Source of the DNA: Niveispirillum lacus
Lineage (GTDB): Bacteria; Pseudomonadota; Alphaproteobacteria; Azospirillales; Azospirillaceae
Assembly (NCBI RefSeq): GCF_002251795.1
Contig: NZ_NOXU01000021.1
Span: 1 to 64,000, forward strand
Length of the DNA stretch: 64,000 nucleotides
Direction: 5' to 3'
In this document: in pieces, positions 39,437-56,445 of the stretch
How positions within the stretch are numbered: the stretch's first letter is position 1
How the letters are laid out: every line of letters begins with the position of its first letter
Made by a program: the position numbers and the translations under genes
Notes under the pieces: generated by a model
The model's database searches: none
Told to the model about the DNA's origin: nothing
What the model saw: only the letters and a program-made list of their open reading frames with translations

Positions 39437-42400
39437 TTAGGGCTTGATCGGGTAGGGTTGCGGGGTCCCCAGATTGCCGGGTGTGCCTTTGATCCGTGAT
39501 TGCAGATCACGGATGGCGGCGACCAGTTGGGCATCGGGTTCGCCGCGCAGGGCGGGTTGGTCGAAATCGACCTCGATATCAGGGGTTACCCCTTCACCTT
39601 CGATGATCCATTCCCCCTTGGGTCCCGCCAGCGCATATTGCGGGACGGCAATATGGCCGCCATCCAGCAACGGCCCCAGATCGCCGGTACCGACAACCCC
39701 GCCCCAGGTGCGCTTTCCGATCAGCCTGCCGCGCTGTGTCTGCTTGAAGGTCCAGGCCATGGTATCGCCGTCCGACATGGTGTTTTCGTTGATCAGCATG
39801 GCCATTTCGCCAGTGAAGACCTGTGTGTAGCCGCCCCAGGGATAGGTCTGCGGGTGCTGAAGACCACGCACAAAGCCGCGGGTGAAGGCCGGCCGCAGCA
39901 GGCGTTCCAGGATCATGCGAGAGACATTGCCCCCGGTATTGCCGCGAATGTCGATGATCACCCCATCCTTGCGAAGCTGTCCGTACCACTCCTTGACGAA
40001 TTCAGACAGACCGGCACCGGTCATGTCGGTGATATGGACATAACCGATGCGTCCCCCCGACATTTCATCGACCAGACGCTGGGCGGCCAGACGCTGTTCA
40101 TGCCGGATCAACAGGGTTTCGGTGCGCAGGGTCTTGACCAGAAGGCGGCGCTCCACTGTCGCGGACGGCCCCAACCCTACCTCAACGACCTGGTTCGCCT
40201 TGCCCATCAATGCCTGATAGGGGTTGGTGGTGGCGTTCAGCGGCACACCGTCGATGGACAGCAGATATTCACCCACCCGCGCCTCATTGCCCACGCTGTT
40301 CAGCGGGGATCGGTAAAGCGGATCGGCACGGTCCCCCGCAAAAATGCGGGTGATCCGCCAGAGACCGGTGGCCTTGTCCAAGGCGAAGCGGGCACCCAAC
40401 AGCCCAATGTCAGGGCGGGGGGGCAAACCATCATCCCCGCCATCCACAAAGGCGTGACTGACATTGAGATCACCGATCATGTGGCTGATCAGATAGTTAA
40501 GGTCAGCCCGGTTGCCCAGCGCGGGCAGCAGGGCACGATATCGCTCACGGGCCGCCTGCCAATCATGACCGTGCATGCCGGGATCGTAGAAATAGTCCCG
40601 ATACAGCCGCCAGGCTTCGTTGAATATCGCTGCCCATTCCTGTGGCGGATCGACCCGCATTACGATCCGCTCCAGATCCAGGCGCTGCGCGTCTCCCGCC
40701 AGGCCAGCGGGCCCGAAACCCGCCACCCGCAGGTCGTCGCGTCCCTGGAACAACAGGATGGTCTGACGCTTCCGGTCAACATCATAACCGACCAGATCAC
40801 CCGTGACGCGGTTGGGCTTGGTGGCACCAAAGGGTAGCAGGAACAAGGTGCTGGTCTGCGGCCCGTCCGCCTCGAACCGGGGAGCGTCCGATATCCTGAA
40901 CATCAGGCTGAAACCCGGTCCGAAACTCAGATCCCGGTAATTGTCTTTGTCGACCGGCACGGGGATCACCCGTTCTTCCAGCCCGTCAAACTCCACCGAT
41001 AGCGGTTTATCCGCCTTAGACACCGGTTCCTCACCGCCCCTACCGACGGGCACACCCGCCGGAAATGGGTTGGGAGCATCCTTTTGCAGGGCCAGAAGAT
41101 AGGGCCGCGTCTGGCGGGCAGCGGCAAAGTTCCATTCCGTCTCACTGATCAGCAGATTGACATCCCGAACCGACAGAAAGGCCAGATAGCGACGGTCAGG
41201 GGACCAGACGGGCTCACCACTGTCATAACTGGGGTCCGTCACCGGACGATTGGCACCGTCGCGGGAATCCCAGATGCGGACCATGCGCATGTCATTGGGC
41301 TGCAACTCGGCATAGGCGATGTACCGGCTGTCGGGCGACCATTCATATTGGCGAATGTACCAGGCACCGGTGCTGCCGACCTTCCGGCGTTCCCCGCTGG
41401 CCACATCAACGCTGAACAGCGTGCCTTCCCGGTCAAGCACGGCAAGGCGTTTGCCATCGGGGGACCAACTGGGTCGGTAATAGCGGTTGCCGCCGCTCTT
41501 TGTGACCTGCCGGGCGGCACCGCCGCTGGCGGGAACCACCCACAATTCCTCATCACCACTGGCGTCGCTGATATAGGCGATGGTGCGACCATCGGGGGAC
41601 CAGGCCGCTTCCCGGTCATGCGCGCTGGGGCTATGTGTCAGGTTGACAACCGCACCCAAGCGATTGCCCTGCATCACAAACACATCGCCGCGCGCCACCA
41701 CCAACACATGCTGGCCGTCCGGCGACAGTGCCCCGCCTTCGATATTCTTGGAACCCTTGACCAGCCGCGGCAACCGGTTCAAATCCTGTGTCGGAACCGT
41801 GATATCCAGCGGGCGCACCTTGCCGGTTGAGATGTCATAGAGCATCAAACCGGCATTATATTGCAACACCACATTGCCCTTGGCATCGGCGCTGGCAAAT
41901 TCCGCCCCGTCCTGTTTAAAATCCGTCAGTTTGCGGGGTGCCCCGCCCTGCTCGTCGGTGAGGTACAGGTTCATATGCCCGTCCTGATCCGACAGATACT
42001 GTATCCCCGCCTCTGTCCACATCGGGTCGCGTTCGGTGCGCGGCGTACCGGTGATACGGGTCAGTTTTTGCGCCGAAGGGTCGGCAATATACAGGTCCGG
42101 TGCCCATCCCCCCTGATAGCGCTTCCATGTCCGGAAATCGCGGAACAGGGGCGAGAACAGCAGCCGCTTGCCATCGGGTGAATAGACACCATTGCCTGCC
42201 CGCGCCATGGGCAGGGGCTGTACCTGACTGTCGTCGACAGTAACAGTATAGAGCTTGGATTCTGTGTTCAGGGACACATCCTGGAACGACCTGAACAGCA
42301 CCGCAGAGCCATCCGGCTTCCACCCCGTGACCTGATTGTCATATCCAGAGCGGGTGCCAAGGGGGCCACGCGCGGGGTAGAATGTCAGTTGCCGGGGAGC

Positions 42401-42697
42401 CCCGCCCGCCGCCGGAATGAGGTAGACCTGTTCATCCCCGCCATATTGCCCTGTGAAGGCAATCCATTTGCCATCGGGGGAGAATTTGGCGAACAGTTCC
42501 AGCCCCGGACCACTGGTCAATTGCCGTGCTGCACCACCATCCGTGCTGGCAATCCACAGATCACCGGCATAGGAGAAGACGACCTGCTTTCCATGGATGT
42601 CTGGAAAACGCAGCAGTCTTTGCGGTTCCCCCTGCGCGATGGCAGCAGAGCCGCACAGCGTCAGACAAGCCGCGATCCCCAATGCCCGCACCCACAT
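39437..42697 (-). CDS. Tricorn-like S41 serine protease, exported
   Basis: 1086 residues. A signal peptide (about 1-22, ending AIAQ) is followed by beta-propeller repeats with SPDGKWIAF-type motifs (to about residue 650). Then come the core with His in NVSHAFVDGG, a PDZ domain (about 740-840; YLLSIDGVPLNATTN), and the nucleophile Ser-Asp in NTMSDGDTMAW. These match the Tricorn His-Ser-Asp arrangement. It degrades peptides, probably in the periplasm. The ATG at 42697 is preferred since it begins the signal peptide. It lies 141 bp after the TonB receptor gene on the same strand. Confidence 0.9.
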   Translation of the reverse strand: MWVRALGIAACLTLCGSAAIAQGEPQRLLRFPDIHGKQVVFSYAGDLWIASTDGGAARQLTSGPGLELFAKFSPDGKWIAFTGQYGGDEQVYLIPAAGGAPRQLTFYPARGPLGTRSGYDNQVTGWKPDGSAVLFRSFQDVSLNTESKLYTVTVDDSQVQPLPMARAGNGVYSPDGKRLLFSPLFRDFRTWKRYQGGWAPDLYIADPSAQKLTRITGTPRTERDPMWTEAGIQYLSDQDGHMNLYLTDEQGGAPRKLTDFKQDGAEFASADAKGNVVLQYNAGLMLYDISTGKVRPLDITVPTQDLNRLPRLVKGSKNIEGGALSPDGQHVLVVARGDVFVMQGNRLGAVVNLTHSPSAHDREAAWSPDGRTIAYISDASGDEELWVVPASGGAARQVTKSGGNRYYRPSWSPDGKRLAVLDREGTLFSVDVASGERRKVGSTGAWYIRQYEWSPDSRYIAYAELQPNDMRMVRIWDSRDGANRPVTDPSYDSGEPVWSPDRRYLAFLSVRDVNLLISETEWNFAAARQTRPYLLALQKDAPNPFPAGVPVGRGGEEPVSKADKPLSVEFDGLEERVIPVPVDKDNYRDLSFGPGFSLMFRISDAPRFEADGPQTSTLFLLPFGATKPNRVTGDLVGYDVDRKRQTILLFQGRDDLRVAGFGPAGLAGDAQRLDLERIVMRVDPPQEWAAIFNEAWRLYRDYFYDPGMHGHDWQAARERYRALLPALGNRADLNYLISHMIGDLNVSHAFVDGGDDGLPPRPDIGLLGARFALDKATGLWRITRIFAGDRADPLYRSPLNSVGNEARVGEYLLSIDGVPLNATTNPYQALMGKANQVVEVGLGPSATVERRLLVKTLRTETLLIRHEQRLAAQRLVDEMSGGRIGYVHITDMTGAGLSEFVKEWYGQLRKDGVIIDIRGNTGGNVSRMILERLLRPAFTRGFVRGLQHPQTYPWGGYTQVFTGEMAMLINENTMSDGDTMAWTFKQTQRGRLIGKRTWGGVVGTGDLGPLLDGGHIAVPQYALAGPKGEWIIEGEGVTPDIEVDFDQPALRGEPDAQLVAAIRDLQSRIKGTPGNLGTPQPYPIKP

Positions 42698-42838
42698 TTC
42701 CAAACGACGCAAGCTCCCCTCCCACCGCGCGACGGTATTCCATACATTCCAGCCTCTCCGCTGCCCCGATGGTGGCAACCTTCCACCACCGGGTCAGCGC
42801 AATCACCCGCCGGATGATACGCCCCGGCACTGCTGCAA

Positions 42839-45800
42839 TCAGAACGTCTTGCCAAGACGGATCGAAACCGTACGGCCCCGCAGATCATACAGATTGCTGG
42901 GCACCGAACCGGTCCGATAGGTGTAGCTGTCAGACCCCATCACCGGCGGCTTTTTATCGAACATGTTGATAATGCCGATCTGGCCCGACAGGTCCTTTTC
43001 AATCTGCCAGCGGACGCTGACATAGTGGGTCATGTAGGAACCGACCGTCAGTTTTTCCGCCACCTGCAAGCAATCATTGCGGTTCCCCGGCACCGTGCGG
43101 CCGGCATAGGCACCGCAATAATTGAACAGATTGTCGCCATCATAGTACTTCGCATCGTTCGTTGGGCCGATGAAGTTGAAGCCGTAGAAGAATGATAAAT
43201 CCTCTACCTTCAGGTTCGCTTCCACCCAACCGACGGTCTTGGGATTGCCCGAAAGCCCGTTACGGTCTTCATAGGAATTCTCATCACGGCGCAGGGAATT
43301 CTCAAACACCCAGTTCCACTGCACATTCAGACCGAAGTCCCCAAAGCCAAGGGGTTGCCGGAATGAGGCTGACAGATCAATGCCCCGCTGCTTCTGCTGT
43401 GCCAGATTGACCAGACGATCATCGACGACCGTAATCGCGCGGGTCATGGGGTCACGTGTAACTCTGGCGCAGAAGTTATTACCAGGGAACGTTGGGCTAT
43501 TGTAGCAACGGGAAATAATGCTGCCAACTCCATAGGAAGCCACTTCATTGCGTACCGCAATACTGTAATAGTCCGCAGCAATGCTGAGGTCGGCAAAGGC
43601 CGGGGTCAGCACAATGCCGACACTCTTGTTCCGTGATGTTTCTGCCTTCAACTGTCCCTTGCCACCCCCTGTTACGGCAGTGATGCCATTGTTGGCCGGA
43701 TTGAAGTCTGGCGCAAAACCCTGGCTGGCACAGTTGGCAGCAACTGTGGGGCCAGCCGTGTCGCCATAGCGGACACAAGGATCGCTATAGGCATAGAAAC
43801 TGAGTTGGTTGGCCAGATACAGTTCATAGAGCGAGGGGGCGCGGAACGAAGTCCCCGTGCTGGCACGCAAAGAGACCCAGTTATTGACGGTCCAGCCCAG
43901 GCCCGCCTTATAGGTTTCATCCGACCCAAAGCTGCGGTAGTTGGTGTAGCGGCCGGAACCGGTAAAAGTCAGCTTCTCTACCACCGGCAAATCAGCCAAG
44001 AGCGGCACGCCGATTTCGCCGAATACTTCCTGGACCGTATCGGACCCCTTGGTGATCCCAGCGGTGGAGGAGGCGAAATAGTTACCGTTGCGGGCGTTGT
44101 AACCTGGTGTGTCGTTCAGGGCCTGATACCGGATCGTGAAGCCCGTGGCGAGATCAACCGACCCTGTGGGCAGGTCGAACAGCGCACCGGAGATTGAGCC
44201 GTCAATGCCAAGCTGGTCATACTTGGTACGCCCTGTCTCGCGTCCCTGCAGGAACGAACGTTCAGCATCCGTCCAATCCTGGTCAACCAAGAACCGCTTC
44301 GACAGCCAGGGGATGGACACACAGTTTGTCGGGCCGGAAATGCTGATCAGCGCGGCGTTGCAGGCAACGCCCGGCGCCGTCGCTGCCGCCAGTCGATCGG
44401 CGTAGAAGAATGAACTGCTATATTCGCCATCGGATCGTCCGGCATGGCCGGAAACGTCCCACGACCAGGGGCGGGCAATGATTGGCATCTCCAGCCCACC
44501 GCGCACACCGGCGGTGATCTGGCCATAATTGACGTTCTGGCGCTGCTCCTGGGCCATGTTCATCTGCGGCTGGACCAGACCAGTCGAATTACCGCCGCTG
44601 GCCTGGATCAACCCAGCCGCCACCGTATTGTTCGGATTGGTTGGCGACAGTAGCGGATACAGGAACTGCCACGTATCTGAGGAAGAAACCCGCCGGTTCA
44701 GCAGCACATTGCCATAGGCTTCAATGTCAGGGGCGAGTTCATAGGAGCCCGCAACATACAGGCTGCCGGTGGACAAAGGCGAAATGCTGTCGGCATTCTG
44801 ATAGGCAGGGCTGTCGCTGATGCCATAGGTATAGGTCTCCGGGAACCCGCCGCGCGCTGTTCGCACCCAATCCGGCAGGACGTTGCGCAGACCCAAGGCC
44901 GAGGCGGGATATGATGCACCGGCTGCACCGGGTGCATACTGGAACCAGCCGCCATACCACGTGTAGTCGAAGAATATCCCGGTGGGGTTCAGGTTGCGGC
45001 ATTTGATGTTGCCGCTGGTGTCCAGAAGATCGGTCCGCTGTCCCGTCCTGGGATCATAGACATAATCCTGGGCGCAGGATGTCCGTTCGCGCTGGCGGTT
45101 CTTCAAGGCTTCCTGGCGGCGATATTCGGCGGCGACGGTCAAGGTGCCTTGGCCGAAATCCTCGCCCCAGAACAAGGCGCCCTGAACATAATTGCCGCCG
45201 CCATGTTCGCTTACATTACCGTCAAGATTCAACTCCACCCCGTCGGAAGTTTTGCGCGGAATGATGTTGACCACACCGGCGATGGCATCAGAGCCGTAAA
45301 TGGAAGAGGCACCACCGGTCAGCACTTCCACCCGACTGATCATCGAGGATGGCAGCGTATTGAGATCCACCTGACCGACACGGCTGCCGGTACCTGCCGG
45401 GGTCAGGCGCTGCCCGTTCAACAGGACCAGTGTGCGCCCTGCCCCCAGGTTACGTAGGCCAACCGTCTGGGCATTGTTCCCGCCATCGACGACCCGGCCA
45501 CCCGCACCCGTCGCCGACAGCTTGTTGTTCACCTGCTGCACACCCAGGGCCGCGACCGAGCGCATAATAATCCCTGCGGTATCGAACGCACCGGCATTGC
45601 GCGCCGTCTCTGCATTAATGATCTGGACTGGTGTTGCAGTATTGTATTCTGAGCGCAATCGTGACCCTGTCACGACAATATCACCCAGCTCTTCCACACC
45701 GGTATCAGATGACGCTTGCGGGGCTGCCTCGGCAGTCGGATCTGCGGGCTTGGCCAGAAGATTGGTGTCGGATGATTGCGCCTGCGCAGCGACAGGCCAA

Positions 45801-45856
45801 AAGAGTGCCGCAACGGAAACGCTGCCCAGCAGCGCCGTCTTTACAAATCTGTTCAT
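42839..45856 (-). CDS. Large TonB-dependent receptor
   Basis: About 1005 residues from the ATG at 45856, which has AGGGA at a suitable distance; the ATG six bases earlier sits too close to it. Signal peptide 1-26 (ending AQAQ), a TonB-box-like DIVVTGSRLR, a plug (about 60-180; NLGAGRTLVLLNGQRL, VEVLTGGASSIYGSDAIAG) and a large barrel ending in Phe (RLGKTF). The plug style matches receptors for organic polymers or peptides. With the downstream Tricorn-like protease it may form a peptide-uptake unit. Confidence 0.9.
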   Translation of the reverse strand: MNRFVKTALLGSVSVAALFWPVAAQAQSSDTNLLAKPADPTAEAAPQASSDTGVEELGDIVVTGSRLRSEYNTATPVQIINAETARNAGAFDTAGIIMRSVAALGVQQVNNKLSATGAGGRVVDGGNNAQTVGLRNLGAGRTLVLLNGQRLTPAGTGSRVGQVDLNTLPSSMISRVEVLTGGASSIYGSDAIAGVVNIIPRKTSDGVELNLDGNVSEHGGGNYVQGALFWGEDFGQGTLTVAAEYRRQEALKNRQRERTSCAQDYVYDPRTGQRTDLLDTSGNIKCRNLNPTGIFFDYTWYGGWFQYAPGAAGASYPASALGLRNVLPDWVRTARGGFPETYTYGISDSPAYQNADSISPLSTGSLYVAGSYELAPDIEAYGNVLLNRRVSSSDTWQFLYPLLSPTNPNNTVAAGLIQASGGNSTGLVQPQMNMAQEQRQNVNYGQITAGVRGGLEMPIIARPWSWDVSGHAGRSDGEYSSSFFYADRLAAATAPGVACNAALISISGPTNCVSIPWLSKRFLVDQDWTDAERSFLQGRETGRTKYDQLGIDGSISGALFDLPTGSVDLATGFTIRYQALNDTPGYNARNGNYFASSTAGITKGSDTVQEVFGEIGVPLLADLPVVEKLTFTGSGRYTNYRSFGSDETYKAGLGWTVNNWVSLRASTGTSFRAPSLYELYLANQLSFYAYSDPCVRYGDTAGPTVAANCASQGFAPDFNPANNGITAVTGGGKGQLKAETSRNKSVGIVLTPAFADLSIAADYYSIAVRNEVASYGVGSIISRCYNSPTFPGNNFCARVTRDPMTRAITVVDDRLVNLAQQKQRGIDLSASFRQPLGFGDFGLNVQWNWVFENSLRRDENSYEDRNGLSGNPKTVGWVEANLKVEDLSFFYGFNFIGPTNDAKYYDGDNLFNYCGAYAGRTVPGNRNDCLQVAEKLTVGSYMTHYVSVRWQIEKDLSGQIGIINMFDKKPPVMGSDSYTYRTGSVPSNLYDLRGRTVSIRLGKTF

Positions 45857-46016
45857 TTTCATTCCCTGTTCACAGACAGCGCTGGTCATTTGACGCATTC
45901 AAACAGGCTGAAAACGCACCAAATAGGTACGCCTTAGCCCGCTGGAACGCCGCCAGCCGCTTATGTTGAGTGATAATTGGGGGATGTAGGGTCTATCGAG
46001 CAGAAGACCCGTGATT

Positions 46017-46034
46017 TCAGCTTGAGTCAGTCAT
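46017..46034 (-). other. Five-codon ORF directly behind the glycine riboswitch
   Basis: GGAGG (minus strand, about 46043-46047) lies eight bases before an ATG at 46034 that opens MTDSS followed by TGA. MTDSS-like starts are common for GcvT, so this may be the stub of a lost glycine-cleavage gene, or a leader peptide. The TonB receptor ATG lies 178 bases further on. Confidence 0.5.
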
Positions 46035-46069
46035 GACGGCACCTCCAAAAGCGGATTCTCTGCTTTTCG

Positions 46070-46235
46070 GTGCCCCATCTGTCTTTGTGCCTGAGAGTAT
46101 TACCCCGTCGGCGGACGGTCATGCTGTGGCATGCCGTCACTCTCCAGATGTTAGTCGTGAGCCCATGGTCCTTTTGCCTGAGAGTTTCCGGGGCGGTTGC
46201 TCCTTCGGCGCCGGCAAGGCCGGTCTCTCCCATGT
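46070..46235 (-). ncRNA. Tandem glycine riboswitch
   Basis: Two aptamers are read on the minus strand. The first (about 46235-46162) has GGGAGAGACCGG, GCCGAAGGAGCAA and AAACTCTCAGGCAAAAGGACC-type signature parts. The second (about 46150-46070) has CTGGAGAGTGACGG, GCCGACGGGGTAA and ACTCTCAGGCACAAAGACAG. A possible TTGACA box is at 46280-46285. The class normally switches on glycine-cleavage or glycine-transport genes. Here the next full gene is a TonB receptor; an AAAAGC/GCTTTT hairpin just before GGAGG could form the expression platform. Confidence 0.88.
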
Positions 46236-46466
46236 GCTTCTGCAAAAACGTATACCAGAGTGCGCAGCAAAAGAAGCGCTGTCAAGCCATCAGGGTAACA
46301 TTTTGGCGGCTTTGCACCACAAACCGTAACTTCATGACAATATGTGGTTGTGCAGCGCACAATGATCTGAATGCAAACCCATCTGCGCGCGCATGGAAAC
46401 CGGGCAGAACAGATAAAGTGGCAGACAAGCTACCAATTCCCCGAAAGAAACCTGCTCAGTGGTTTG

Positions 46467-46890
46467 CATAGCACGCTGGTGCAGTTGCTGACCCGCTTCT
46501 ACGAGGCCAATGGCGGCACGGTGAATATCGACGGCCACGATGTCCGCGTCTGTCACAGCGCAGCCTGCGCCGGTATGTGGGCGTTGTTTTACAGGACAAT
46601 GTCCCGTTCGACGGCGCCATCCTGGACAATCTGCGTCTGGCCCGGCCGGACGCCACCGATGCCGACCTGATCGACGCCGCCCGTGACCTAGGCGCCGATG
46701 AGGTGCTAGAGGCGCTGCCGCTGGCCTACCACATCCCTGTTGGTCCCATGGGCAGCCATCTCAGCCTGGGTCAACGGCAGCTTGTTTGTCTGGTTCGTGC
46801 CTATATCGCCGATCCCGCCGTGCTGGTGCTGGACGAGGCGACGTCGGCCGTGGATGTCCACACCGAACGCCGCATCCAGCGCGCATCCAC
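46467..46890 (+). pseudogene. ABC exporter ATPase fragment
   Basis: The piece begins just after the Walker A lysine ([22 protein letters not shown]) and breaks frame near 46545. The next frame continues with [19 protein letters not shown], the signature LSLGQRQ and Walker [13 protein letters not shown]. It then runs into the IS5 fragment near 46880 within HTERRIQRA. So it is 5'-deleted, frameshifted and 3'-truncated, the remains of a type I exporter/ABCB-like nucleotide-binding domain. Confidence 0.85.
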
Positions 46891-47484
46891 ATCCTTCTGG
46901 GCCGCCTTGGCCGGCTGGTCGGGCCAGATCTCATGGGCGGACTTGCCTTGCTTGATCGCCGCTTTCTCCGCCTCCTTGTTACGCTGGCGGGGCGCCGCCA
47001 CCAGGGTCGCATCCACGATCTGACCCGACATCGGCAGATAACCCGCTGCAACGATCGCCTGATCCAGCCGCGTGAACAGCGCGTCCAGCGCACGGACACG
47101 GATCAATGTGCCGCGGAAATCCCACAGCGTGTTGGCATCGGGTACCCCGTCCCCTGGACCCAGGCCACAAAACCGCATCCAGCTCAGCCGGTCACGCACC
47201 AGATACGATGTCTGTTACAGCGACAACCGGTGCAACGCCTGCAACACCTGCATCTTGAATTTCAAAAACCGCGTCAAACGGCGGGCGACCGCCCCCCCCT
47301 GCGCAGGCCGCCGCGGCGCAGGGCCTTGGCCAGAACCGGCCGGAACTGCTCAAAGTCAACCGTCGCCGACAACTGACGTAGACGATCCTCAAAATCCCAG
47401 AAACCGCCCTGTCCCGACATGACCAACCTCGCTACAGGCTGCATGCCCTATCATAGCAGAAATCGGCAGTTTCCGGAGGGGTCC
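46878..47484 (-). mobile_element. Truncated IS5-family element, left end and 5' half of the transposase gene
   Basis: On the minus strand, its left end GGACCCCTCCGGAAAC at 47484 and the transposase start at 47420 match the full copy at 49947-51190. Homology stops abruptly near 46878 at codons GATGCGCGC, where ABC-transporter sequence begins. It carries its own Gln-to-stop change (TAA) and an indel in a G run, but keeps TGG (Trp) where the longer copy has TGA. Confidence 0.87.
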
Positions 47485-47708: not shown

Positions 47709-48331
47709 CTACCTTTGCCTGGCCACCGCGCTCACACGGCGGATCCCGAAGCGGCGGGCAGCATCCGTCAGCGCATCCTCCGCATCGACCCAGCCCGGAT
47801 TGCAGCAGCCAGTTCCGGCAAGGCGATATCCTCGACCATGCGGATGTCCTCATCTGAACAAGGATAACGGGCCCGTTCCCACGCCGCCGGTGCGGTAGCA
47901 TTGGCCCAGATGAAGCCACTGCCGGAGGTCTCTGTTTCCAGATGCGCCACACCACGCGCCACCGACAGCAAGCGGTCGCGAACCTGTCGCCCAGACCGTT
48001 TGAAGCCATGGGCCCGGGCGATCATCCGTTCGAGCAGCAGCGTTTCCCGGATGGGCGCCTCGCATTCGACAACACGCAGGATCATATCGCGGAGAACGGC
48101 TGCATAATCCGGATCTTGAAACCGTTCCGGCGCGATTGATGGCTGGTCGGAGAAATCCGTTATACGGTAATCACCAACCAACAGTTCCATTTCGGGTACC
48201 GGCGGTGCCCCGGCGTTCTCCTCCTGCGGGTCGACAGGATCAGCGGGCAGATCAGCAAGTGATACAGGGGGGGCCGGTGGGGCTTCGGGACGGAGTGCGG
48301 CTTCCAAGGCGGTTTTTAGGCTGCGTGCCAT
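47709..48331 (-). pseudogene. C-terminal remnant of a DUF3320-type helicase-like protein
   Basis: The frame from 48331 encodes about 187 residues. It has the DUF3320 segment VVECEAPIRETLLLERMIARAHGFKRSG cut as EAPIRETLLLERM and ARAHGFKRSG. The open frame ends early at 47768, but in the next frame DAEDALTDAARRFGIRRVS continues the domain to a stop at 47709, showing a one-base frameshift near 47787. DUF3320 proteins are normally over 1000 residues, so the rest of the gene is gone. Confidence 0.7.
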
Positions 48332-48589
48332 GCTACCCGCCAGAGAGTATGAGGTGGAAGCGTGCTGGCCAGTGGGGCGCCATCGCCTCTGGGACAGAAA
48401 ACGACCAAGTTTACACCGACCATATGCCGAGATAAGGGTCGGAAAACACTTTGGATGCCGTAAGTCTGTCAGACGTCCATTCACCCAACGATTGATGTGG
48501 CGGCTAACCGGGTCGCACAGATTGCAGAGGTTAAATGTGTAGAAGCAGCGGCATCACACCGCTGCTTCCAATTTTTTCGCTGTGCGAGT

Positions 48590-51942: not shown

Positions 51943-52113
51943 GGTCGACCTCCCGTTGTGCGGTACTGATCGTAAGATTGGAAATTGATTAATATAAGGC
52001 TCGGGAAGTACCTAAATCCTAAAGCGGTATTTCAAAATCCGCATTCGTCACCCATCGAATGAACAATCGTGATACAATGTATTCCAATCAAAAATTGGAC
52101 CGGTAATTTCACC

Positions 52114-55100
52114 ATGACTCGCTCCACAAAGAAGACAGACGGCCCCTCTCCGTCGAAGGCAGCAATGGATATTGTTGCCATTGGCGCGTCTGCGGGCGGT
52201 CTGGAGGCGGCAAGCCGGTTCGTGGAAGCACTTGGGGATGGCGGAGGGGCTTGTTTCATCCTGGTGCAGCATCTGGACCCCAACCATGACAGCCTGCTGG
52301 TTGATCTTCTGGCGGTGCACACGGCAATGCGTGTCTGGCAGGCCACCGACGGCATGGAACTGTTGCCAGGACAAGTCATCGTCATACCGCCCGGCGCCTA
52401 TCTCTCGGTGATAGACGGGCGTCTGCACCTGACGGCCCCGCCGCGTGGCCAGGGCACACGCCTGCCCTTCGATTTCCTGCTGGCATCTCTGGCCCGCGAC
52501 TTCGGGAGTCGTGTGGTTTGTGTCGTGCTGTCGGGGACCGGAACGGACGGCAGCCACGGGCTGCGCGCGGTGAGGACGGCGGGTGGGCTGGTAATCGCAC
52601 AGGATCCGGCGGAGGCTGGATATGAAGGCATGCCGCGCAGCGCCATGGCCACTGGCCTGGTGGATCATGTGCTACCGGTTGCGGCTATGCCTGAGGTCAT
52701 CCGCAACCGCCACCGCACGGACACAGCAGCTTCCAAAAGGATGGAGGAAGACGCGGACAACGGGTTAGCCGCTATCATCGACCTGCTGCGCACCCATACG
52801 CCCTATGATTTCACGCTTTACAAGCAGGGGACGTTGCGGCGGCGCATCGACAGGCGGATGTCCATGGCCGGTATCGCCGCCGATGGTTTGCCGGAATATC
52901 TTGAGCTGCTGCGGCGTGATCCGGCGGAACGGGACAATCTTGCCAAGGATATGCTGATCAATGTCACAGAATTTTTCCGCGATCCGAAAGTGTTCGAGCT
53001 CCTGGCTGCGGCCGTCATTCCCGGTCTGATCCGGGGACGATCCACGGATAATCACCTTCGCCTGTGGGTGGCGGGATGCAGTACGGGGGAGGAAACCTAT
53101 TCCCTTGCCATCCTGTTCCTGGAACAGATCGCACTGGCCGGTTTAGCGATGAAACTGCAGCTGTTCGCCTCCGATGTCGATCCCGACGCCATCGTCACCG
53201 CGCGCGAAGGTTGGTACCCGGCGAGCATTGCCGAGAATGTTTCCGCAGACCGACTGGCCCGATTCTTCATCGCCGATGGAGGAGGATATCGGGTCACGCA
53301 GGAACTGCGCGCCCATGTCATCTTCACAGTCCAGGACGTGCTGGCGGATCCGCCCTTTTCCCGCCTCGATTTCATCTCTTGTCGTAATCTGTTGATCTAT
53401 CTGATGCCGGAGGCACAGGCGCGGGTGCTGGCCCTGTTCCATTTCGCCTTGCGCGATGGTGGTTTCCTGCTGCTGGGCGGTGCGGAAACTGTGCTGCCGA
53501 CAGCATCCGACCGGTTCGAGATCGTGTCGAAACCCGCCCGTCTGTTCCGCCACGTGGGCCGCAGCAAGCCCGGCGATTTCAGTTTCCTGATGAGCACAGG
53601 GGATGGCGTCCGCGCCCTGCCCCGTATCGGCACCGGCCCCGGCCCATCGCGACAGAACGCCTTGGCGGAGCTGTGCCGGCAACTGGTGATGCGGGATTAT
53701 GCCCCGGCAGCCATCCTGATCAACCGTTCTCATGATTGCCTTTATTCCCTGGGGCCGACCGACCATTTCTTGCGCGTGCCATCCGGCCACCCGACCCAGG
53801 ATCTGCTGGCCATGACACCCCCCGGTCTGTCGGTCAAACTTCGCGCCGCCATCCAGCAGGCGCACCAGGAAAAGGCCAAGATCACGATCCAGGGCGGTCA
53901 GATGCGCCGGGATGGCGACATTATGGAGTTCAGCATCGCCGTGCATCCCGTCACGCATGAGGGCGAGAATTTGATGCTGGTCTGCTTCATCGACGAGCCC
54001 CGCCCGGCCGGTGCGCAGAACAAGGCACCGCTGTCCGCCAATGGACAGACCGGCAATCTGGCCCGTGAGTTGGACCACACACGCGCCGAACTGGAAGCAG
54101 CCATTCGCAACCTGGAACTGGCAGGGGAAGAACAGAAGGCCGTCACCCAGGAAGCCCTGTCGATCAACGAAGAATACCAGTCCGCCAACGAGGAATTGCT
54201 GACCTCCAAGGAAGAGTTACAATCGCTGAACGAGGAACTGACGGCCTTGAACAGCCAGCTGCAGGAAACCCTGGACCAGCAGCGAACCACATCGAACGAT
54301 CTGCAGAACGTACTCTACAGCACGGATGTGGCGACCATCTTCCTGGACCTGGAATTGGCCATCCGCTTTTTTACGCCTGCCACCCGTTCACTGTTCAGCA
54401 TCCTTCCCAGCGATGTTGGCCGGCCCTTGGCCGACCTCAGTTCGCTGGCCGCTGACGGCGACCTGTTTGCTGACGCACAATCTGTCTTGAAATTGCGCGT
54501 GCCGATGGAGCGGGAGATCGAGGCACGATCTGGCGCCTGGTACCTGCGCCGGGTTCTACCCTATCTGACGCGTGACGATCAGGTGGAGGGGGTGGTCATC
54601 ACCTTCGTCGATATCACCGAACGCCGGCGCGTGGCTGAAGCCCTGCGGACCGCCAAGCGTCAGGCGGAAATGGCAAACCGGGGCAAATCACATTTCCTGG
54701 CTGCCGCCAGCCATGACCTGCGCCAACCCCTTCAGACCCTTATCCTTTTGCAGGGCATCCTGGCGGGCCGCATACAGGCTGACAAAGACCGGGAACTGCT
54801 GGACCGGATCGGGGAAACCATCGGCGCTATGTCGGGCATGCTGAACGCCCTGCTGGATATCAACCAGATCGAAGCCGGCGTCATCGCCACCGAGCTCTCG
54901 CGCTTTCCCATCAACGACCTTCTGACCCGGATGCGGGACGAATTCAGTTACCACGCCCATGCCCGTGGCCTGGCCCTGCGCGTGGTTCCCTGCGGTGTTC
55001 AGGTCTTCAGTGATCGGCGCCTGCTGGAGCAGATGGTGCGCAACCTGCTGTCCAATGCCCTGAAATATACCCGGCAGGGTAAGGTGCTGCTGGGCTGCCG

Positions 55101-56445
55101 CCGCCGGGCAGGCGGGATCAGCATCGAAATCTGGGATACGGGCATCGGCGTTCCGGAAGCCGAACAGCAGGCGATTTTCGAGGAACATCATCAGATCATC
55201 CAGGCCGACGGTAAACCGGGCAACGGCCTAGGCCTGGGATTGTCGATCGTCCGCCGGCTGAGCGGGCTTCTGAACCATCCGGTGAGGGTACGGTCGGTAC
55301 CGGGCAAGGGGTCGGTGTTCGCTATCGATACTTTCGCCGATCCGCAGGCACAGGAGGTACCCGTCCTGCTCACACCGGATGGTCTGGAACAAGAAGTCAC
55401 CACCCCCGGTAATATCCTGGTAGTGGAGGATGACCCAGAGGTGGGTGATCTGTTATGTACGCTTCTGCGCGATGCTGGCCACCGGGTGTTGCTGGCGGTC
55501 GATGCGCCGTCGGCCCAACGCCAGATAGCGAGAGAGGTCTTCCGCCCGGACCTCTTATTGGTCGATTTTAATCTGCCGGGAGGGACCAATGGGCTGGATC
55601 TGCTGACGGCCCTGCGCCGCGACTTGCATCGCGCAGTTCCGGGCCTGTTGCTGACAGCAGATATCTCCACGGAGACGTTGCGCGCTATCGCCCTGCGCAA
55701 CGAATTGCAACTGCACAAGCCAGTTGATCCCGCCAATTTGCTGCGCACGATTCAGCGGATGCTGTCCATGCCGCCACTGTCAGCGCGGATGCCGGAACCC
55801 AGAGTCGAGGCGGTGGAGGGCGTCACCATCCACATCATCGACGATGACGCCCTGCTGCGCAACAGCGTCCACCAAGCCCTGGAAGGGCAAGGCTGGCATC
55901 TGGTTGACCATGCCAGTGCCGAGGATTTCCTAGCTGAACGGCAACAAACAGGACGGGGATGTCTGTTGATCGACGCCTACCTGCCCGGCATGGGCGGGAT
56001 CGATCTGCTGCACCATCTGCGGCAGACCGGCGTCATGACCCCCGCCATTGTCATGACTGGCAGCAGCGACGTGCCCGTGGCTGTGGCCGCCATGCGGGCG
56101 GGAGCTGCTGATTTCATCGAAAAGCCGGTCAGCCAACCCGAGTTGGTGGCCAGCATCGGCCTTGCTTTGGAAAGGGCAGAGGACGGGAGTAAGCTGGCCA
56201 CATGGCATCAGGACGCTGCCGAACACCTGGCCGGGCTGACGGCTCGGCAACGGCAGATCATGACCATGGTACTGGCCGGACACCCCAGCAAGAACATCGC
56301 CACAGACCTGGGGATCAGTCAGCGCACGGTGGAGCATCACCGGGCCGCCATCATGCGCCGGACGGGAGCACGATCCATTCCCGCCCTGGCGCGGATTGCC
56401 TTACTGGCAGACTGGGACATTTCGGCAGAAATAGAAGTGGATTAA
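52114..56445 (+). CDS. CheB-CheR-PAS-histidine kinase-REC-REC-LuxR multidomain regulator
   Basis: 1443 residues, no membrane segment. Order: CheB methylesterase (about 20-205; GASAGG, LVQHLDP, GTGTDGSHG intact), CheR methyltransferase (about 217-480; GCSTGEETYS), coiled coil (about 650-725), PAS (about 730-845), HisKA with His867 (SHDLRQPLQ), HATPase (NLLSNALKYT, DTGIGV, GLGLGLSIV), REC1 from about 1100 (Asp1151), REC2 from about 1240 (Asp1287), and a FixJ-type LuxR HTH (about 1375-1440). The ATG at 52114 is used; a GTG 45 bases upstream is possible. It could sense, phosphorylate itself and bind DNA in one chain. Confidence 0.93.
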   Translation: MTRSTKKTDGPSPSKAAMDIVAIGASAGGLEAASRFVEALGDGGGACFILVQHLDPNHDSLLVDLLAVHTAMRVWQATDGMELLPGQVIVIPPGAYLSVIDGRLHLTAPPRGQGTRLPFDFLLASLARDFGSRVVCVVLSGTGTDGSHGLRAVRTAGGLVIAQDPAEAGYEGMPRSAMATGLVDHVLPVAAMPEVIRNRHRTDTAASKRMEEDADNGLAAIIDLLRTHTPYDFTLYKQGTLRRRIDRRMSMAGIAADGLPEYLELLRRDPAERDNLAKDMLINVTEFFRDPKVFELLAAAVIPGLIRGRSTDNHLRLWVAGCSTGEETYSLAILFLEQIALAGLAMKLQLFASDVDPDAIVTAREGWYPASIAENVSADRLARFFIADGGGYRVTQELRAHVIFTVQDVLADPPFSRLDFISCRNLLIYLMPEAQARVLALFHFALRDGGFLLLGGAETVLPTASDRFEIVSKPARLFRHVGRSKPGDFSFLMSTGDGVRALPRIGTGPGPSRQNALAELCRQLVMRDYAPAAILINRSHDCLYSLGPTDHFLRVPSGHPTQDLLAMTPPGLSVKLRAAIQQAHQEKAKITIQGGQMRRDGDIMEFSIAVHPVTHEGENLMLVCFIDEPRPAGAQNKAPLSANGQTGNLARELDHTRAELEAAIRNLELAGEEQKAVTQEALSINEEYQSANEELLTSKEELQSLNEELTALNSQLQETLDQQRTTSNDLQNVLYSTDVATIFLDLELAIRFFTPATRSLFSILPSDVGRPLADLSSLAADGDLFADAQSVLKLRVPMEREIEARSGAWYLRRVLPYLTRDDQVEGVVITFVDITERRRVAEALRTAKRQAEMANRGKSHFLAAASHDLRQPLQTLILLQGILAGRIQADKDRELLDRIGETIGAMSGMLNALLDINQIEAGVIATELSRFPINDLLTRMRDEFSYHAHARGLALRVVPCGVQVFSDRRLLEQMVRNLLSNALKYTRQGKVLLGCRRRAGGISIEIWDTGIGVPEAEQQAIFEEHHQIIQADGKPGNGLGLGLSIVRRLSGLLNHPVRVRSVPGKGSVFAIDTFADPQAQEVPVLLTPDGLEQEVTTPGNILVVEDDPEVGDLLCTLLRDAGHRVLLAVDAPSAQRQIAREVFRPDLLLVDFNLPGGTNGLDLLTALRRDLHRAVPGLLLTADISTETLRAIALRNELQLHKPVDPANLLRTIQRMLSMPPLSARMPEPRVEAVEGVTIHIIDDDALLRNSVHQALEGQGWHLVDHASAEDFLAERQQTGRGCLLIDAYLPGMGGIDLLHHLRQTGVMTPAIVMTGSSDVPVAVAAMRAGAADFIEKPVSQPELVASIGLALERAEDGSKLATWHQDAAEHLAGLTARQRQIMTMVLAGHPSKNIATDLGISQRTVEHHRAAIMRRTGARSIPALARIALLADWDISAEIEVD

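Follow-up and report, generated by a model that had tools for sequence, protein, structure and literature searches.

In the 64,000-nucleotide stretch of Niveispirillum lacus DNA analyzed here (contig NZ_NOXU01000021.1, positions 1 to 64,000; hereafter the window), the minus strand carries one classical tandem glycine riboswitch, and it stands before the genes of a TonB-dependent receptor (TBDR) and a tricorn-type protease. As the riboswitch stayed with the receptor in four related bacteria, control of nutrient uptake is probable, rather than a leftover of a lost glycine gene. We favor, as likely, a joint reading: the element is a functional riboswitch of the TBDR–tricorn unit, in which gating of a leader start codon sets the yield of TBDR–protease mRNA, and it was tied to this unit before two genera split, or moved with the unit. 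The riboswitch class is known and the aptamers are ordinary; what is unusual is the TBDR–protease target, of which we found no report in the literature covered, and the five-codon gate.

The riboswitch and the genes that follow it

Both aptamers match the covariance model RF00504 above its gathering score (Table 1), in agreement with the sequence-only reading, which had proposed a tandem glycine riboswitch from conserved signatures. The glycine-GGAnGA model RF03166 also spans both aptamers, at 77.2 bits versus a gathering score of 110 and hence below threshold; since its score stays under this value, the riboswitch belongs to the classical RF00504 class. By homology to this class, glycine would be the ligand.

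Table 1 Features of the riboswitch locus in the window
Feature	Position	Strand	Basis or description
Putative -35 element TTGACA	46280..46285	-	Consensus only
Glycine aptamer 1	46156..46242	-	RF00504, 71.7 bits, gathering score 32, E 5.4e-13 (cmscan)
Glycine aptamer 2	46069..46157	-	RF00504, 52.7 bits, above the cut-off of 32 (whole-genome search)
Expression-platform hairpin	46038..46074	-	GGCACC-AAAAGC...GCTTTT-GGA-GGTGCC; pairs part of the Shine–Dalgarno (SD) sequence GGAGG
Leader ORF, MTDSS-stop	46017..46034	-	Five codons; ATG at 46034, at the gated-start position
Untranslated spacer	45857..46016	-	160 nt; hairpin directly after the leader stop
TBDR, 1005 aa	42839..45856	-	PF07715 and PF00593, above cut-off
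Tricorn-type protease	39437..42778	-	PD40, Tricorn_C1, PDZ_Tricorn and Peptidase_S41 (Pfam)

Three elements follow on the 3' side of aptamer 2: the platform hairpin with the SD, then the ATG, and then MTDSS. The GGAGG site, the correctly spaced ATG and this ORF are present as had been described, with the stop ending at 46017. The 178 bases that had been given as the distance to the next gene hold from the leader ATG to the TBDR ATG; from the leader stop to the TBDR ATG the distance is 160 nt. A TTGACA motif lies 33–37 nt 5' of aptamer 1 in the window and in three related loci; an automatic consensus scan did not call the window copy as part of a promoter. The lack of a covariance-model hit, or a strong promoter or a terminator between 46017 and 45856, had been named as grounds to refute the sequence-only reading. 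The covariance model does hit, and a consensus scan of the minus strand finds neither a promoter nor an intrinsic (T-run) terminator in this interval.

The TBDR start is best placed at 45856 (MNRFVK...): alignment with the relatives begins at this codon and not at 45898, where a longer ORF would start. Against NCBIfam the TBDR matched 21 models, none above its cut-off. The protease matches the tricorn protease 1k32 (E 1.1e-80). In the alignment up to the C-terminal part, its SH and SD pairs match those of 1k32, which we take to be the catalytic positions there. The Pfam domains and the match to 1k32 bear out the earlier description of a TBDR followed by a Tricorn-like protease. The N-terminus of the protease looks, by eye, like a signal peptide, and the protein is predicted to be periplasmic; peptides would be the cargo of the receptor.

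Other ORFs of the window merit mention in their own right. An ABC transporter ATPase fragment (46577-47023, plus strand; second half of PF00005) is found on the opposite strand, immediately upstream of the riboswitch, and resembles a remnant. An ORF with a match to DUF3320 only (47768-48484, minus strand) may be one end of a larger, disrupted gene. A single ORF of 1458 aa (52069-56445, plus strand) fuses CheB, CheR, PAS, histidine kinase, receiver and LuxR-type DNA-binding domains.

Conservation of the riboswitch with the receptor

Orthologues of the TBDR (E 1e-150 or better) are present in 4 of the 82 Azospirillaceae genomes searched, and these belong to two genera; the order-level search also covered 82 genomes. 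The holders are the window genome, its congeners SYP-B3756 (G006) and RU38E (G010), and, from the other genus, Nitrospirillum amazonense BR 11622 (G070), and the orthologues are 78, 78 and 60% identical to the window TBDR. At E 1e-180 the receptor was found in 1 of 385 class genomes and in 1 of 398 phylum genomes, each time the window's own. A pattern scan of the genomes of named species returned just the three relatives and one metagenome-assembled genome (MAG), and plasmid matches were only 32–34% identical. A tandem RF00504 riboswitch lies upstream of the TBDR in all four orthologous loci; because SYP-B3756 and RU38E are near-identical there (93%), these loci amount to about three independent lineages. 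The first alternative of the sequence-only reading, that glycine controls peptide uptake and breakdown at this site, finds support as a conserved association of riboswitch and receptor, which may reflect such control.

The protease has the same distribution. Tricorn orthologues of 62–74% identity occur in the four genomes that have the TBDR, and seven further genomes hold only distant ones (27–34%). The riboswitch, TBDR and protease are common to the window and the two congeners, while a comparison of the 64-kb window with their 18-kb stretches, at the nucleotide and protein levels with ORFs of at least 150 residues, gave no flanking gene in common. As the window has nothing else in common with the congener stretches compared, these three elements move, or are retained, together. 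The protease gene of N. amazonense is oriented divergently from that of the receptor. On the protease strand of that locus, upstream of the tricorn gene (L063:7976-8067, plus strand), there is a weak RF00504 match of 31.1 bits versus the cut-off of 32, with a broken P1. It resembles the 5' half of aptamer 1 joined to the 3' half of aptamer 2 and is perhaps a decayed second copy of the riboswitch.

The distant MAG SZAS-87 (L090) encodes a receptor of 56% identity, together with the protease. Its 14.9-kb locus yields no RF00504 match over the gathering score; upstream of the receptor–tricorn pair there are instead genes for a sigma-70 region 2 protein and for a FecR protein. From sequence, it looks as if the glycine riboswitch and the sigma factor/FecR system had replaced one another, in either direction.

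Targets of glycine riboswitches in Azospirillaceae and beyond

Two more tandem glycine riboswitches occur in the window genome, one at gcvT (PF01571) and one at the gene for an L-serine dehydratase (PF03313, PF03315), each upstream of its gene. The usual targets thus also stand under a glycine riboswitch in this genome, and the window element would be the third member of an ordinary glycine regulon. The 26 non-gcvT riboswitches examined in the family precede sdaA (8), a dadA-type FAD oxidase (8), the Gly_transporter PF03458 (5), the TBDR (4) and a peptide-type ABC transporter with SBP_bac_5 (1). Pfam confirmed three of the sdaA targets, four of the dadA type, two transporters (one on a 150-residue stretch), one of two dioxygenases and the peptide transporter; the remaining targets were assigned by similarity or by eye. 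The dioxygenases are PhyH-type ORFs that lie between riboswitch and sdaA in two of the eight sdaA cases; in these loci (L121 and L122) the intervening ORF has 297 aa (PF05721 PhyH in L121) and the riboswitch a leader ORF of 47 codons. The peptide transporter operon, of family 5, is found in G011 (L126:12172-13782, minus strand) and is a second link between a glycine riboswitch and peptide uptake.

Outside the family, we sampled 70 alphaproteobacterial aptamer places: the 30 best and 40 picked among the matches listed, favoring genomes with two riboswitches. By tblastn with seven queries, 62 of them precede gcvT, three sdaA, one a dadA-type gene and one a Gly_transporter-type gene (34% identical). 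The three places that matched none of the seven queries comprise one gcvH, one ORF with a glutamine synthetase catalytic domain (L164, G118) and one without a clear target. No TBDR or tricorn gene follows a glycine aptamer at any of the 70 places. Two glycine aptamer places of one contig (G151:C70; L168 and L169) are 1.3 kb apart, the second being without a clear target.

Passages in PMC6944388, PMC3766115, PMC5069720 and PMC9481103 name as targets of glycine riboswitches genes for glycine cleavage and metabolism, transport proteins, serine metabolism and malate synthase. In the mostly open-access literature covered, including parts of PMC6944388, PMC3766115, PMC2258182, PMC5069720 and PMC9481103, we found neither a TBDR nor a tricorn gene as such a target, and no paper in that literature combined "glycine riboswitch" with tricorn.

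Short leader ORFs at the gated start

Within the window's genus, the riboswitches of sdaA, dadA and the receptor have their gated start 33–44 nt after the aptamer, and MTDSS occupies the position where sdaA or dadA starts in the sister riboswitches. Short leader ORFs open at this start in 12 of the 26 non-gcvT riboswitches examined in the family. They have five codons before the TBDR (three cases), 12 codons before sdaA (one, in G007), 47 codons that overlap the next ORF (G003 and G005), and 21–23 codons with a stop that overlaps the start of the PF03458 glycine transporter (L110, L111, L112, L115 and L116, from five genomes of two genera; Pfam confirmed PF03458 in two of the five). The last, of 33 codons, overlaps a peptide-binding protein, and its gated start is further off, at 84 nt. 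The overlapping leader ORFs invite translational coupling. The TBDR case does not fit simple reinitiation, as 160 nt lie between the leader and the TBDR.

Both congeners have MSITS-stop at the position of MTDSS. The leader codons are not conserved between the window and these congeners, and we estimate the chance of a stop at the same codon at about 5%. N. amazonense keeps the riboswitch and the TBDR with no leader ORF at the gated start, which speaks against the leader ORF as a universal requirement. This arrangement could also be taken to mean that the leader ORF is irrelevant and that the riboswitch acts on the TBDR through transcription only, by termination or folding in the spacer; the spacer folds are indeed more stable than those of mononucleotide shuffles (z -4.2, -2.9 and -1.7). 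However, the minus strand of the spacer has no T-run terminator, and the SD-pairing hairpin with its well-spaced ATG is kept in three species. We consider action by transcription only to be quite improbable.

Sequence constraint and RNA folding

Riboswitch and platform share 87% and 84% identity between the window and the two congeners, and 59% over the whole alignment between the window and N. amazonense. The DNA of the TBDR and protease is about 75% identical between window and congeners, and for the spacers, of 160, 166 and 165 nt in the three species, alignment did no better than with shuffles (z 0.4 and 0.8, window versus congeners). The RNA thus looks more constrained than its surroundings. 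RNAalifold on the four TBDR riboswitches predicts 55 pairs, of which eight are changed on both sides yet paired in at least one sequence. Seven of these changes are in the row of N. amazonense, which is uncertain in the platform in this four-sequence alignment; the remaining one, pair 190-229 of the platform stem, is A-U in the window and G-C in the other three sequences.

Retention of the riboswitch in four of four orthologous loci from two genera, with compensatory pairs and at an identity above that of spacer or genes, is not what one expects of a captured, inert relic, that is, of an sdaA/dadA-type riboswitch that was taken over with the first codons of its gene and now gates a meaningless ORF, with the promoter of the TBDR in the spacer. 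Nor does the minus strand show a promoter-like site in 45700-46700, in a scan that used the sigma-70 consensus only and also misses the presumed upstream promoter. What commends the relic is that the spacer is unconserved, that the window platform resembles the sdaA platform of G039 (GGGGCACCGA..GGAGGTGC..ATG), and that MTDSS resembles the gcvT start MTDST of G027 and the sdaA start MPESP of G039. On balance we think a relic unlikely.

The platform hairpin folds in the four TBDR leaders and in two sdaA2 leaders (z -1.3 to -4.3 against mononucleotide shuffles); the sdaA1 leader and the dadA leader tested show it less clearly (z -0.6 and -0.7, same shuffles). Against shuffles of this kind, the hairpin after the leader stop stands out in the window (z -3.5), and those of the congeners do not (z -1.2 and -1.5). 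In constrained folding, forcing P1 of aptamer 2 leaves the SD about 0.6 unpaired, as it is without P1, in all runs but one. The exception is SYP-B3756 folded to the TBDR start, where forcing P1 drops the unpaired SD from 0.60 to 0.04; across the three species folded, no consistent switch or direction emerged. Use of Rho, sought as a rut-like excess of C over G in the spacer, finds no support, the excess being no better than chance: 0.06-0.41 of the 160-nt window segments reach the value, and the N. amazonense leader, being 440 nt long, is unfairly favored by this measure.

Origin of the riboswitch

A tree was built from 26 non-gcvT and 28 gcvT riboswitches of the family, 54 tandem elements in all, drawn from the matches listed. 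Tree and counts exclude partial single aptamers, in G027 (C198, first copy) and in N. amazonense (divergent), and further gcvT loci, for example L024, L048, L050, L051, L053-L057 and L079-L087. The TBDR riboswitches of the four genomes group as a single clade (UFBoot 92); the gcvT riboswitches fall outside it, on a branch with support 93 that also carries the one peptide-transporter case. The TBDR clade falls close to the groups of sdaA and dadA, with none of them resolved as its sister; a placement as sister of sdaA2 alone finds no support, as the branch that joins the other groups has a support of 62 and near-zero length. These relationships suggest that the riboswitch is likely an old capture from an sdaA/dadA-type riboswitch, with MTDSS left over or evolved from the captured start.

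The sequence-only reading had also considered that a gcvT-type gene was deleted and its riboswitch left behind. In its simple form this finds no support: the receptor follows the riboswitch in each of the three related loci, where no gcvT was found, and the riboswitch groups outside those of gcvT. A recent deletion of a gcvT operon at the locus would fit with the likeness of MTDSS to the gcvT N-termini of other family members, but the genome has its own gcvT with a riboswitch, the window element falls outside the gcvT clade (the branch of support 93), and the same TBDR is downstream in the relatives. We reject it on these three grounds as extremely improbable.

Discussion

The preferred reading, leader-start gating of the TBDR–tricorn unit, can be set out as follows. 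Transcription would most likely start just 5' of aptamer 1. By homology, glycine binding would alter access to the SD and ATG directly 3' of aptamer 2, the same ATG that is the presumed start of sdaA or dadA in the sister riboswitches. As the ATG opens a five-codon leader ORF here, glycine would set how frequently ribosomes load at the leader. This loading may in turn determine the amount or stability of the mRNA that reaches the TBDR and the protease 160 nt on, possibly by way of Rho-dependent termination or of the fold that the untranslated spacer adopts. Control of initiation at the leader ATG is proposed from homologous sequences; the effect on the TBDR and protease, its route and its direction we infer. 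As sdaA and dadA are catabolic genes, we lean by analogy slightly toward an ON rather than an OFF switch.

If this reading is true, one intracellular amino acid controls both uptake at the outer membrane and digestion in the periplasm, and the role of glycine riboswitches extends from glycine detoxification and import to the acquisition of larger nutrients. That gated leader ORFs recur in the family also suggests a simple route to new targets, in which the gated start is kept and what follows is truncated or replaced. A bolder proposal, tentative and rather doubtful as it stands, is that the Azospirillaceae glycine riboswitch is a portable gate on short leader cistrons and not on the target gene itself. 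In this locus it would have become a near-minimal, five-codon start–stop gate whose loading decides, over 160 nt, whether the TBDR and the periplasmic tricorn are made, and intracellular glycine would report on, and control, feeding on external protein or peptides.

Comparison with known systems

The window element is like the tandem gcvT type of RF00504 in its two aptamers over the gathering score and its classical core, and unlike it in its target, a TBDR with a tricorn-type protease. With the sdaA/dadA riboswitches of Azospirillaceae it has in common the distance from aptamer to gated start, and the sdaA2 leaders share its SD hairpin. In those riboswitches, however, the gated start usually begins the enzyme, whereas in the window it opens an ORF of five codons and the next gene comes 160 nt later. 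The cobalamin riboswitch precedes btuB, a TonB-dependent receptor that imports the ligand itself. The two cases are alike in that a riboswitch stands before a TonB-dependent receptor; they differ in the ligand and in that the receptor there imports it.

The B12 riboswitch of ppe2 in M. tuberculosis, according to parts of PMC11260477, gates a translated uORF, and the gene is reached mainly by termination–reinitiation. As described there, it resembles the window in having a riboswitch-controlled leader ORF (a predicted one in the window) before the main gene; it differs in its B12 class and in its uORF, which overlaps at AUGA, whereas 160 nt separate the ORFs in the window. The glycine riboswitch of glcB in SAR11, as presented in sections of PMC5069720, was likewise recruited to a gene outside glycine metabolism; its target is an enzyme of central carbon metabolism, and that of the window a unit of uptake and proteolysis.
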